NCBI GenBank assembly: GCA_009691245.1
Contig: SHUM01000039.1
Span: 1-34,179 of the forward strand
From: Acidobacteriota bacterium
Lineage (GTDB): Bacteria; Acidobacteriota; Terriglobia; 2-12-FULL-54-10
Reading direction: 5' to 3'
Length of the DNA: 34,179 nt
Below are positions 6,625-30,753 of this stretch, one piece after another (the stretch's first letter is position 1; every line of letters starts with the position of its first letter). The notes under the pieces are model-generated. The model searched no databases. It was given only the letters and a program-made list of their open reading frames with translations, and was not told the DNA's origin. The translations under genes and the position numbers were made by a program.

Positions 6625-9249
6625 TTACTGTTTCAACTCCACGATGGTGGCTCCGGTGCCGCCTTCGTTGGGTGGGGCGGGGGAAAACTTTTCCACCTGC
6701 GGGTGCGTCGCGAACATCTCGGCCAGCGCGCGCTTCAGGATGCCCATGCCGTGGCCGTGTACGACGCGCACGCGCGTCAGTTGGGCGAGCAATGCGTTGT
6801 CCAGAAATTTGTCGACACGGCGGACGGCATCGTCCGCTGTCTCGCCGATCACGTTGATCTCGGCGGATGAACCCTGCGCGGCGTTTTCCATGCGCACGCG
6901 GATGCCGGCGCCGCCGCTCCCGCCAGTATGGCTCCCAGCATGGCTCAATGCCGGCTTGCTATTGCTTGAGCTAGTCGAGGAGGCGACGGACGCGGCGGGA
7001 ATTACTTCGGAGACATCATCAAATGACACCTTCATGCGCAGCGATCCGATCTCCACTTCCAACCCGTTGTCGCTTTTCGCGCGAACGATTCCAGTTTTAT
7101 TGAAGCTCTTCAGGTGAACGCGGTCGCCCACTCCGGCCTGGCGCGGCGTGAGGGCGGGCAGCGGCAGGGCAGCAAGAGCGGTGGCGGCGGGACCGACAAC
7201 CGCTTGCTCGGGGGCGCTGGCTTCGGCGTCGGTGCCGGTACCGCTCAGGTGGCTGACCCAACTCTGGCGCAGATCGTCCTGCGCCTGCTCCTTGAATTGC
7301 GACGCGACTTTCGCGGCCTTCTTCGCAGTATCGGCGGACTTGCCGGAGCGCGGAGCGCCAGCGCCAGCCAACGCCGCAATCTCTTTCAGCTTCTGCTCGG
7401 CGCGCTCGTGCAGCTCGCGCGTGAGCGTCTCCAACTGGCCCTCCCACGCGGCGGCGCGCTCGGCCTCGCGCTGGCGCTGCGTCTCGGCCCAGATGCGTTC
7501 GCGCTCGCTTTGCTCCGACGTTCGCTGTTCGAGATCCGCGCGCAGGCGTGTGGCCGCTTCGGAGTCCTCCTGCAAGCGGGCGAGAAAGCGCTCGACATCA
7601 TGATGCGCTGTTGTCAATGCTTGGCGCGCGCGCGCCAGAACATCGGCGGGCAGGCCTAATCGTTGCGCAGTAGCCAGTCCGCTAGAGCTGCCGGGACGGC
7701 CCAACTCCAGCTTGTAAGTGGGCGCGAGCGTCTCTTCGTTGAAGCCCATGCTGCCGCTCTGCAGACCGTCGCTACTGGCCGCGTAGGCCTTCAGCGCCAT
7801 GTGGTGCGTGGAAGTAACGGCGAAGACGCCCAGCGCGCGGAAGCGTTCCATCACCGCGACAGCCAGCGCGCCGCCTTCTTCCGGGTCAGTCGCTCCGCCG
7901 AGTTCGTCGAGCAGGATCAGCGACGCAGGGGTTACCGATTCCAGCATCGACTTGATGTTTAACAGGTGTGAGGAGAAGGTGCTGAGATTCTCCGAGATGG
8001 ATTGCGCGTCGCCAATGTCGGCGAGGACCCGATCGAAGAACGGCAGTTCGGCGCGCTCGGCGGGGACGGGGAGACCGGACAAAGCCATCAGCGCCAGCAG
8101 CCCGGCGGTCTTCATGGCCACCGTCTTGCCGCCGGTGTTGGGGCCGCTGATCACCAACATGCGGCTGTTCTCACCAAGCACAAGAGTCAGGGGAATGACG
8201 GATGACTGCTTCTCTGCTCCCTGACCGCGCAGCAGCGATTCCAGCAAAGGGTGGCGCGCGGCCTGCAGCACCAGGCGGGGCGCGGCGTCCTTTTCGCAGA
8301 ATTGCGGAATCACGCAATGATAGTCAGCCGCAAATCGCGCCGAAGCGAAGGCGTGATCCAACCGCGCGAGTATGGCGGAGGTCTCGGTTATTTCCGCGGC
8401 GCGGGCGTGGAAGGACGCGGTGATCTCGCGCAGGATGCGGTGCACCTCGCGCGCTTCCTCTTCCTTCAAACGCACCAGATCGTTGTTGGCGTCGATGGTT
8501 TCGAGCGGCTCCACGTAAAGCGTCTGGCCGCTGGAACTCGACCCATGCACCACGCCGCGCAACTGACTTTTCTTCTGCGCGCGCAGCGGCACGACGAAGC
8601 GGTCGCCGCGCACGGTGATGATCTCGTCCTGCGCGGACTCTTCGCCGGAGACCTGCCTCAGCAAATTACGGAGAGAGGAAAGAATCAAGCGGCGTTGTTT
8701 GTCGATCTCCTGGCGGATGCGCGCCAACTGCGCGCTGGCACGGTCATCCAGATCGCCCGAGGGCAGCAGCTTGCCGGACCACTGGCGGACCAGCGGCTCG
8801 AAGTCGCCGATGCGATCGCCTACGCTGGCGAGCAACGGAAACTTGCGCCGCGCCTGCACCAGCGCCGCGCGAATCGCTACGGCGACTTCCAGCAGACGAA
8901 GCAGTGAGATAATCTGCGGAATCTCCAGCGCCGCGCCTTCCACTCCGATGCGCTGGAGAATTTCCTCGGGAGCGTCGATGCCGCCGAACGAGATGGATTG
9001 GAGATTTGCGGAGTCGCTCTGCGCCGGTCGAATGCCAGACTGGGAGCGCGCGGACTGTGTAGGGCCGGAGAGTTCGCGGCGGTAAGCCATTGCTTCAGCG
9101 GCGAGCTTGAGCCGGCTTTCCACTGCATTCGCGTCCCCACCCGGAGTCAGGTCGAGGATGGACTTGCGTCCCAGCGGACAACCGGCGTAGCCCGCCACCA
9201 GCGACAGCAGTTCGTGATACTCAAGTATTTCCAGCGCGGAGGTAGACAT
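6625..9249 (-). CDS. mutS2: MutS2 family ATPase/endonuclease with Smr domain
   Basis: This 874-residue protein has full MutS2 architecture: an N-terminal clamp/lever region, an ABC-type ATPase with Walker A GPNTGGKT (369-376) and Walker B LLDELGGATDPEEGG (446-460), a long Glu/Gln/Arg-rich coiled coil (about 545-660), a KOW-like segment (about 703-750), an Ala/Ser-rich linker, and a C-terminal Smr domain (about 796-874) with the nuclease-type HGHGMG at 831-836. MutS2 is not a mismatch-repair protein: it limits homologous recombination and, in Bacillus, acts on collided ribosomes. An insert at about 62-85 (Ser/Gln-rich) looks lineage-specific. ATG 9249 has only a weak AAGAAAA upstream. The stop codon touches the target duplication of the IS701-type element. 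Confidence 0.95.
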   Translation of the reverse strand: MSTSALEILEYHELLSLVAGYAGCPLGRKSILDLTPGGDANAVESRLKLAAEAMAYRRELSGPTQSARSQSGIRPAQSDSANLQSISFGGIDAPEEILQRIGVEGAALEIPQIISLLRLLEVAVAIRAALVQARRKFPLLASVGDRIGDFEPLVRQWSGKLLPSGDLDDRASAQLARIRQEIDKQRRLILSSLRNLLRQVSGEESAQDEIITVRGDRFVVPLRAQKKSQLRGVVHGSSSSGQTLYVEPLETIDANNDLVRLKEEEAREVHRILREITASFHARAAEITETSAILARLDHAFASARFAADYHCVIPQFCEKDAAPRLVLQAARHPLLESLLRGQGAEKQSSVIPLTLVLGENSRMLVISGPNTGGKTVAMKTAGLLALMALSGLPVPAERAELPFFDRVLADIGDAQSISENLSTFSSHLLNIKSMLESVTPASLILLDELGGATDPEEGGALAVAVMERFRALGVFAVTSTHHMALKAYAASSDGLQSGSMGFNEETLAPTYKLELGRPGSSSGLATAQRLGLPADVLARARQALTTAHHDVERFLARLQEDSEAATRLRADLEQRTSEQSERERIWAETQRQREAERAAAWEGQLETLTRELHERAEQKLKEIAALAGAGAPRSGKSADTAKKAAKVASQFKEQAQDDLRQSWVSHLSGTGTDAEASAPEQAVVGPAATALAALPLPALTPRQAGVGDRVHLKSFNKTGIVRAKSDNGLEVEIGSLRMKVSFDDVSEVIPAASVASSTSSSNSKPALSHAGSHTGGSGGAGIRVRMENAAQGSSAEINVIGETADDAVRRVDKFLDNALLAQLTRVRVVHGHGMGILKRALAEMFATHPQVEKFSPAPPNEGGTGATIVELKQ

Positions 9250-9283
9250 TTTTCTTAGTCAACAAAATCCAACTGCTTGCCAG

Positions 9284-9397
9284 CCTGAGCGGCCTGTCCC
9301 TATTTATCGGGAAGCGTAGGACTTGCTTTTTCAGCTTCCGAATGGAAACCAAAAGCAGATCCTTCGCTTCCCGATAAATCGGGACAAGCCGCTCAGG
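9284..9397. repeat. Family A intergenic hairpin, copy A1 (43-nt arms with nested palindrome)
   Basis: The arms 9284-9326 and 9355-9397 are complementary at 38 of 43 positions, and pairing extends inward through GCTTTT/AAAAGC. The right arm, read inward, is the family A unit (ATCCTGAGCGG then AGCGAAGGATCTGC) split by a 20-nt insert whose core TCCCGATTTATCGGGA is itself a perfect palindrome. The left arm carries a diverged copy of the same insert at the same place. It lies 72 nt past the VWA gene stop and 35 nt upstream of the mutS2 start. Confidence 0.85.
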
Positions 9398-9469
9398 ATG
9401 ACAGTCTAAATTATAAGGGTGACAGCCTAAATGACGATGGCAGTATAGAAATAAATTACCAATGAGCCG

Positions 9470-10453
9470 CTAGGGCTTGCTGGCGACGACCGGAGCGCTG
9501 GTGGACGTAACCGCGGTGGCGCCGGGAACGGTGGCGAAGTAGCCGCGGCGGGCACGCAACCTCAATCCTTTGCGCTTCGGCATGGTGATCTCAATTTCAT
9601 GATACTTGCCGTCGCGCGGCGTGGTGGGAACAAAGGACAAGGCGTACTGGCTGCGCAACTCCGTGGCGATGGAGTAGAACGCATCGTCCAAGTCTTCCCA
9701 AGTAGCTGGCTGGAAATAGCGTCCGCCGGTTTCATCGGCAAACTCCTGCAACACTTTATCGCCGGGCAGCTTCACGCCTCGGACATTGGTCGAAATGCTG
9801 TAGACAATGACCTCGGCGCGTTGCGCGCTCTCCATGGTCTGGGCGCGGCTGAAGCGGCTTTGGTTGTCCTCGCCATCGCTGAGCAACACCAGCGCGCGAC
9901 GGAAATTGCTGGAGGGCGGCGCTTCCACGAGCAGGCGGTCGCGCGTGGCGTAGTAAATGGCGTCATAGAGCGCCGTGCCGCCGCCGGCGCGCAACTGGCC
10001 TACCGCGGTATTTAATTTGTCGAGATCGTCGGTGAAGTCCTGCAGCAGTTCGGCCATGCTGTCAAAACTCCCCAGCAGCGCTTTGTCGCGGCCACGCACC
10101 AACAGCGAAGAGAAAAAGTCGATGGAAGCCTTCTGCTCAAACTCCAGGCGGTCGCGGATGCTGTTGCTGGTATCCACCAGCAGGCCCAGGCGGAGAGGCA
10201 CGTCGGTTTCGCGGGCGAGATTCTTAATTGTCTGCTTGACCCCATTCTCAGAAACCTGAAAATCTTCGAGCGTCAGGTCGGTTATTAGACGGTTCTTGTT
10301 ATCCGTCACGATGAATGGGACGGAGACCTCTTCCACCAGTACGCGAATCGGCACGTCGTCAGGCGAATCGGCGGGCGAATCGGCCGGCTGCTGGGTGCGC
10401 GCGGGAGTCAGCAAGACGGATAAGACAATCAGGCTTATGAGAAAACGATGCAT
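9470..10453 (-). CDS. Secreted VWFA-domain protein of the acidobacterial type
   Basis: This 327-residue protein starts with a signal peptide (MHRFLISLIVLSVLLTPART, likely cut near residue 20). A short beta-rich segment follows (VLVEEVSVPFIVTDNKNRLI to about residue 80, containing DLTLEDFQVSENG), then a von Willebrand A domain. The metal-ion-dependent adhesion site is complete: D94-T-S96-N-S98, Thr160 in RAGGGTALYD, and Asp193 in LSDGED. This arrangement is the VWFA-related family greatly expanded in Acidobacteriota; its function is unknown and presumably involves protein binding outside the cytoplasm. A C-terminal beta segment ends in an Ala/Ser/Thr/Val tail. There is no obvious ribosome site before ATG 10453. 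Confidence 0.9.
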   Translation of the reverse strand: MHRFLISLIVLSVLLTPARTQQPADSPADSPDDVPIRVLVEEVSVPFIVTDNKNRLITDLTLEDFQVSENGVKQTIKNLARETDVPLRLGLLVDTSNSIRDRLEFEQKASIDFFSSLLVRGRDKALLGSFDSMAELLQDFTDDLDKLNTAVGQLRAGGGTALYDAIYYATRDRLLVEAPPSSNFRRALVLLSDGEDNQSRFSRAQTMESAQRAEVIVYSISTNVRGVKLPGDKVLQEFADETGGRYFQPATWEDLDDAFYSIATELRSQYALSFVPTTPRDGKYHEIEITMPKRKGLRLRARRGYFATVPGATAVTSTSAPVVASKP

Positions 10454-16605: not shown

Positions 16606-16619
16606 AGCCTTAACCCGAA

Positions 16620-16646
16620 CCGCTCCCTCCCGGTTGCGGCTTGGTT
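16620..16646. repeat. Decayed half-copy of the family B hairpin unit
   Basis: The 27 nt beginning CCGCTCCCTCCCGGTTGCGG match one arm of the family B hairpins (CCGCTCCCTCACGGTCGCGG and so on) with four differences. No complementary arm is present. It lies between the SPOR gene stop and the bidirectional terminator at 16658. Confidence 0.6.
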
Positions 16647-16657
16647 GAGAAAAATCA

Positions 16658-17445: not shown

Positions 17446-17526
17446 ACAGAGCCGCGACCGTGAGGGAGCGGTGGCAGGAAGTGGGTGGCCTCTCAAGCCA
17501 CCGCTCCCTCACGGTCGCGGCTCTGT
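17446..17526. repeat. Family B intergenic hairpin, copy B1 (perfect 30-bp arms)
   Basis: The arm 17446-17475, beginning ACAGAGCCGCGACCGTGAGG, is perfectly complementary to 17497-17526 across a 21-nt spacer. It begins 10 nt after the TonB-receptor stop (read on the minus strand). It is strong enough to act as a 3'-end stabiliser or terminator although no T-tract follows. The remainder of the spacer, 17355-17445, is AT-rich near coaE. Confidence 0.92.
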
Positions 17527-17536
17527 TAGATCGCCT

Positions 17537-23458: not shown

Positions 23459-23578
23459 GAAAACCACTTTCGGACCTAATCGTATAGCGCTGCGAGTCGT
23501 TCGGTCTGGCAACCCGTCCGGCCTATTATACTCGCGGGCGAATTTGCTGGAAGTACGAAATCATGCGCCACGCCCAGT

Positions 23579-23662
23579 CGTCATTCAGAGCGCAGCGAGG
23601 AACCTGCTTTGTTTCCACCGGACACCGCAAAAAACAGGTTCCTCGCTGCGCTCGGAATGACG
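23579..23662. repeat. Family A intergenic hairpin, copy A2 (28-nt arms)
   Basis: The arms 23579-23606 (starting CGTCATTCAGAGCGCAGCGA) and 23635-23662 are complementary at 27 of 28 positions, with a 28-nt loop. The unit is a diverged version of A3 (GTCATCCTGAGCGGAGCGAA), differing at about six positions, and the changes are matched between arms except one. It starts 5 nt after the stop codon of the ligase fusion gene on the minus strand. Confidence 0.88.
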
Positions 23663-23667
23663 ACGGT

Positions 23668-26409: not shown

Positions 26410-26495
26410 AACAGAGCCGCGACCGTTAGGGAGCGGTAACCTCCGACGATTCCCACGGTCAAGCGTGTCCGCTCCCTAACGGTCGCGGCTCTGTT
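26410..26495. repeat. Family B intergenic hairpin, copy B2 (perfect 27-bp arms)
   Basis: The arm 26410-26436, starting AACAGAGCCGCGACCGTTAG, is perfectly complementary to 26469-26495 with a 32-nt spacer. It starts 11 nt after the leuB stop. Compared with B1 the unit has T for G at one position (GTTAGGG versus GTGAGGG), and both arms carry the change. Confidence 0.92.
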
Positions 26496-30672: not shown

Positions 30673-30753
30673 TGTCATCCTGAGCGGAGCGAAGGATCTG
30701 CTTTCGCTGGCAATCTGAGAAACAGCATATCCTTCGCTCCGCTCAGGATGACA
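30673..30753. repeat. Family A intergenic hairpin, copy A3 (perfect 25-bp arms)
   Basis: TGTCATCCTGAGCGGAGCGA at the start of arm 30673-30697 is perfectly matched by arm 30729-30753. The unit extends as GGATCTGC on the left. This uninterrupted copy shows the basic unit into which the A1 insert was placed. It lies 35 nt after the stop of the 64-residue antitoxin-like gene and about 40 nt upstream of the tannase start, overlapping where the tannase promoter would be expected. Confidence 0.92.

Follow-up and report, generated by a model that had tools for sequence, protein, structure and literature searches.

A 20-nt palindromic tip at the apex of REP-like hairpins in an acidobacterial genus and in Bacteroidota, usually in one arm of a pair

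Among the described repeats, the CGTC-tagged REP superfamily (PMC3733652) is closest to the hairpins considered here, which we call family A. Both have an unpaired C/TGTC tag and, apparently, a stem that opens with A-T, both form inverted dimers with a spacer, and in both no transposase gene is linked and the loops vary in sequence. The CGTC-tagged REPs have loops of 4-5 nt, stems of 8-9 bp and a CCA-like tail, whereas family A has a GNA loop closed by GC, a GA/GA mismatch in the stem and the tail CTGC. Di Nocera and colleagues (2013, PMC3733652) list five phyla for the superfamily, Acidobacteria not being among them. In 29 distinct family A arms, GTC of the tag is invariant and its first base is T or C, and the stem consists of five outer pairs and two inner GC pairs with the GA/GA mismatch between them; the first pair is formed in 19 of the 29 arms and the second in all. 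The terminal tag and, at nine Y1-transposase loci, the lack of a linked transposase are found in family A as well, but its loop is GNA in the structure as drawn, or a tip that is 20 nt longer, and neither the 4-5-nt loop nor the CCA-like tail is present. We describe family A as REP-like; it resembles the CGTC-tagged REPs without sharing their loop and tail features.

The enterobacterial REPs or palindromic units (GTAG-3) also join arms of differing loop length, with self-complementary long loops (PMC3733652), but their tag and stem are different, and unequal loops are the rule for all of their dimers, whereas equal plain loops are the rule in family A and only inserted tips are unequal. RAYT-mobilised REPINs (PMC3116915) are likewise short inverted pairs that occur in many copies and have hairpin-folding arms. 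However, a RAYT gene is flanked by a matching REP, while no family A arm was found within about 1 kb of any of nine Y1-transposase (Y1_Tnp) loci sampled across two species; one Y1_Tnp locus that was checked by a family model is of the IS200 type. As no transposase is tied to the repeat at these nine loci, the label REPIN was rejected for family A. The insertion sequences IS1397, ISKpn1 and IS621 (PMC1525189) also insert into REP hairpins, but they are full insertion sequences, whereas the module described below has 20 nt and no gene. A literature search with the sequences returned nothing on these repeats.

The plain family A arm, TGTCATYCYGAGCGNAGCGARGRATCTGC, was counted by pattern matches allowing up to 3 mismatches, which gave 213 arms in the genome under study (3.43 Mb in 96 contigs) and 196 in a sister genome, with 1 match of the reversed-pattern control in each of the two. 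Family A arms are present in 31 of 61 relatives and are far commoner in the genus of the locus analysed here. Close neighbours have the +/- order in 42 of 43 cases, with arm starts mostly 50-69 nt apart, and roughly a hundred such REP-like inverted pairs with TGTCAT...CTGC arms are dispersed in the genome. Sampled stretches held 17 pairs, a number from which no unbiased density follows as the stretches were not picked blindly; the arm scan of a 400-kb sample used a strict pattern.

Drawn as DNA, the arm is an imperfect hairpin that runs through ATYCY, the GA/GA mismatch and GC up to a GNA loop and returns through GC and the complement; the loop and the two central G-C pairs are those of our own drawing. 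GC-GNA-GC is an unusually stable DNA mini-hairpin. According to this model a single arm can fold alone, and the two arms of an element can also pair together; we infer that the arms fold as single-strand hairpins in the cell. The stem is supported by covariation in plain arms, with 21 cells changed on both sides compared to a mean of 8.0 in shuffled data; none of 500 shuffles reached 21, and slid controls gave 0 or 1. Within plain pairs the loop base is concordant in 37 of 42 cases (16 expected) and the stem type in 34 of 42 (14 expected), in a set that is selected because it includes only pairs with an exact pattern match in both arms.

The window, by which we mean the whole analysed stretch of 34,179 nucleotides, holds three family A hairpins, A1, A2 and A3 (Table 1). 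A1 is flanked by a VWA-domain gene and a MutS2-like gene, both of which are read in one direction. An Rfam search of the window matched no family.

Table 1. Positions of the family A elements, the parts of A1 and the adjacent genes in the window
Feature	Position	Strand	Remark
A1, two-armed hairpin	9278-9403		
A1 5' arm, family A unit with palindromic tip	9278..9330	+	6 differences relative to the G001 contig 89 insert arm
A1 5' tip module, 20 nt, CCTGTCCCTATTTATCGGGA	9293..9312	+	core 9297-9312, TCCCTATTTATCGGGA, one mismatch
A1 spacer separating the arms	9331..9350	n/a	
A1 3' arm, family A unit with palindromic tip	9351..9403	-	1 difference relative to the G001 contig 89 insert arm
A1 3' tip module, 20 nt, CTTGTCCCGATTTATCGGGA	9369..9388	-	core 9369-9384, exact
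MutS2-like gene (MutS domain V, Smr)	6625..9249	-	A1 starts 28 nt upstream of its start codon
von Willebrand factor A-domain (VWA) gene	9470..10453	-	A1 lies 66 nt past its stop codon
A2, plain two-armed family A element	23577..23664		loop base C in both arms
A3, plain two-armed family A element	30673..30753		loop base G in both arms

A first, sequence-only reading had placed A1 at 9284-9397, limits that clip its arms, which measure 53 nt each, are 87% complementary and have 20 nt between them. At the apex of each arm stands CYTGTCCCGATTTATCGGGA, with one mismatch within the 5' core. The core, TCCCGAT-TT-ATCGGGA, is a 7-bp inverted repeat that is directional because of its TT centre; in the 5' arm its CCCG reads CCCT. 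The nested palindrome that had been noticed in both arms is therefore there in both, at one position and in inverse order, but the 5' copy is not an exact palindrome. Compared with A3, both arms have 20 additional nt between GAGCGG and AGCG, at the identical place and in inverse order, so that the view of A1 as the A3 unit split by 20 nt is right about the extra length, but it fits A3 only since the loop base N is G there. In the plain partner arms of one-armed insert elements N is A, C or T, and comparison of insert and plain arms thus allows that a 21-nt tip may have replaced the loop base. Predicted DNA folding pairs the A1 arms with each other over their full length, insert included, and folds the 3' arm on its own into a hairpin that is lengthened by the tip. 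The contig of the sister species stops 80 bp before A1, at the position corresponding to 9198, which prevented polarising A1; no family A arm was found in 5.6 kb around the corresponding genes of genome G005.

The window also contains a second hairpin family, ACAGAGCCGCGACCGTNAGGGAGCGGT, with perfectly complementary arms at both 17446-17527 and 26410-26495 and as a lone arm at 16619-16647, and the spacers of several family A pairs (in the stretches L029, L022 and L025) share a stretch like CTGACGCGCGCGGCTCTGTGACG that resembles part of it. A separate imperfect inverted repeat of 37 nt (73%) is found at 1939-2044, with the arms CACGGTGAGCG and TCACCGTGGCTACC.

The core has 7 matches in the 3.43-Mb genome when at most one mismatch is allowed, always within a family A arm, compared to 0 for the reversed-pattern control, and this is not chance. 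In a search of 101 genomes for TGTCCCGATTTATCGGGAAGCG (at most 2 mismatches) only two, both of the genus of A1, contained it. These two species have seven insert-bearing elements each, a total of 14 that includes G000:C25 and, with a one-base deletion, G000:C26, which were added to the pattern matches. Position and orientation of the insert in the arm are constant in all 14. Nine elements are two-armed (A1; C15, C25, C26 and C91 of G000; C10, C25, C82 and C112 of G001) and five are solo arms (C5:79110 and C5:59106 of G000; C89, C114 and C157 of G001). Single-arm forms, whose existence the sequence-only reading had left to be checked, do exist and prevail (13 of the 14 elements, 8 of the nine two-armed ones), A1 being the only element with the insert in both arms; they are as common as an argument against that reading would have them, but their position is never random. 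In G000:C91 and G000:C26 a palindromic tip of another kind is present on the partner arm, and both arms of one more element, in the sampled stretch L188, have tips that are unusual and unequal. About 3-4% of the arms in A1's own genome bear the tip (8 of about 220). One solo tip-bearing arm is orthologous in both species (L028 and L039), which makes the tip older than their split, and the occurrence of the module on three stem types, TCCT/AGGA, TTCC/GGAA and TTCT/AGAA, indicates that tip and stem have recombined.

Family A apices also carry another palindromic tip type, e.g. GTCCGGCGCCTTTTGCCGGGC or GGGCCGACGCATTTGGTCGGCCC (L168, L008, L147), which occurs in the genus of A1 and in one genome belonging to its family. 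L007 and L188:9272-9370 have tips that seem to be duplicated internally (GAGGAGCGNAGCGACGAAG), and the solo insert arm at about 1484-1536 of L037 (G001:C114) ends in GAAGGATGACA, which gives the impression that two arms had been joined by their outer ends around the tip.

Outside the genus of A1, a scan of 84,980 species genomes for TGTCCCGATNNATCGGGAAGCG returned three Bacteroidota assemblies, with matches mostly in Flavobacteriales M30B41, and one match in Pseudovibrio that looks like chance. The host repeat in M30B41 differs from family A and has a six-base stem, a GAAA loop and a GATG tag; a strict stem search, in 128 kb that were selected for containing the insert, found 11 plain GAAA hairpins and 7 in which a tip of the CYTGTCCCGA type, e.g. 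GARACYTGTCCCGATTYATCGGGAA, replaces GAAA. In assembly G619, of the same phylum, a GTCATTCCCACT/AGTGGGAATC repeat bears the module at its apex and is paired with a plain arm, and in the Bacteroidales assembly Zod it is found among AGCGAAGCGA repeats with varying junctions; the remaining Bacteroidota matches lie outside recognised hairpins. The first pattern demanded AAGCG at the right, and the shared flank on that side stems partly from this selection, but a search without AAGCG recovered the identical apex position in M30B41. In samples of the two phyla, the 20-mer is present in 1 of 396 Acidobacteriota genomes, the other 395 lacking it, and in 4 of 395 genomes of Bacteroidota. The viral contigs and the phage and plasmid records searched gave no match to the module, and thus no phage or plasmid carrier was seen. 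Judged by these sequences, the 20-mer looks like a transferable hairpin-tip module that occupies the apex of unrelated REP hairpins in two phyla, and we favour a putative origin of the tip of A1's genus in Bacteroidota, or a common source with them.

We lean towards the explanation that the module is an apex tip which entered the genus once or a few times and spread between repeats by copying, usually into one arm, A1 being doubled. The nested palindrome would then be an apex module that replaces or enlarges the hairpin loop and so lengthens the arm's own hairpin. As a ready-made tip of 20 nt it would have reached arms of three stem types via copying between dispersed repeats with matching stems flanking the tip, by gene conversion or template switching, and normally into one arm per pair. 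Such copying through matching stems would account for the fixed position, the orientation and the three stem types. That the tip moves as a unit is suggested by its anatomy, its fixed place and orientation, the one-arm rule, the stem covariation and the presence of the module in other REP families; the spread by copying and the horizontal transfer of the module are both what we infer from these data, and no enzyme or recombination pathway for the spread was identified. A1 is best regarded as a rare exception whose two arms both came to carry the tip, whether through an old event of arm-to-arm copying or because the second arm acquired it independently. It is a possibility that doubles like A1 are rare because long perfect hairpins are removed. 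We are more doubtful about the stronger proposal that the 20-nt palindromic module is a mobile hairpin-apex cassette, which requires no gene of its own, is set specifically into the loops of unrelated REPs and has moved between Bacteroidota and Acidobacteriota.

For the doubling in A1, a quasipalindrome correction has a reasonable though less than even chance of being right. The module would have been in one arm, and template switching during replication would have copied it inversely into the other, as such switching could do (PMC7202029, PMC8604942) and as is known to make imperfect inverted repeats more perfect (PMC7202029, PMC8604942, PMC8794818). The concordance of plain pairs in loop base and stem type fits this well and keeps arm-to-arm copying, one of the two routes offered by the sequence-only reading, a live option for A1, and a double is not frequent under random assortment: with six tip arms among 90-146 two-armed elements, numbers that are estimates, at least one double has a probability of about 0.05-0.08 in A1's own genome. 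However, correction makes arms alike, and those of A1 differ at 7 of 53 positions, two of which fall within the 21-nt tip, and none of their departures from the common tip is found in both arms. Outside the tip, 5 of 27 positions differ between them, compared to 1-7 of 27 in the one-armed elements, and six other insert arms are nearer to the 3' arm than its own partner is, the nearest (1 of 53) being in the other species. The expectation that arms are more alike within than between copies hence holds for plain elements but not for A1. As, in addition, 8 of the 9 two-armed insert elements were left uncorrected, any correction in A1 would have been old; the arms bear no sign of recent homogenisation.

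Only slightly less credit is given to the alternative that each arm acquired the common tip separately. Tip-bearing arms are frequent enough that the double probability just given, to which the sister genome with its four tip arms adds 0.04, makes such an event uncommon yet not implausible, and the earlier statement that two independent insertions are unlikely is borne out only weakly. Indeed, the two elements with two different palindromic tips indicate that the arms of one element can gain tips separately, and each A1 arm departs independently from the common tip. Chance alone would nevertheless produce this outcome less commonly, and the usual arm concordance of plain pairs speaks against it. 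Old arm-to-arm copying and separate acquisitions are about equally open as the origin of the double.

It seems unlikely that a larger insertion sequence directed at REP loops, in the manner in which IS1397, ISKpn1 and IS621 target REPs, left the 20-mer behind as a scar or an end-to-end remnant. REP-targeting insertion sequences are known (PMC1525189), and an inverted repeat at a fixed apex site in unrelated REPs would suit a targeting enzyme, but a full element was not seen and neither species has a half-site of the module, the TCGGGAAGCGARGRA sites in both being the known arms together with G000:C26, and two one-mismatch sites without the module. Convergence has an equally low standing: TCCCGATTTATCGGGA would be a stable hairpin with repeated origins at loop positions, and the similar 14-mer CCCGATTTATCGGG indeed also terminates the unrelated Yfr1 RNA of Prochlorococcus (PMC2190773). 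The common stretch, however, extends over 20 nt with the CYTG prefix included (CYTGTCCCGATNNATCGGGA being the apex sequence), and the 20-mer is confined to the few genomes given above for the samples of both phyla while being multi-copy in the genus of A1 and in M30B41. Least probable is an ancestral unit that already carried the insert when its inversion and duplication took place, as had also been suggested from the sequence, with one-armed forms being losses, which fits the identical position and orientation in both arms but predicts many doubles, whereas A1 is the single double among 9 two-armed insert elements, the own genome has about 213 plain arms, relatives commonly have arms too while the insert occurs, among 101 relatives, in the genus of A1 alone, and the partner arms are ordinary plain arms or have other tips.

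REP dimers often join unequal elements, which has been described as being without obvious explanation, although unequal loops are known and protection from SbcCD has been proposed (PMC3733652). The finding of an identical tip in unrelated REP families of two phyla, apical and usually in one arm, suggests that loops are exchangeable as units. The tip thereby provides a marker for counting, among closely related strains, how often tips are exchanged, corrected from arm to arm or lost.
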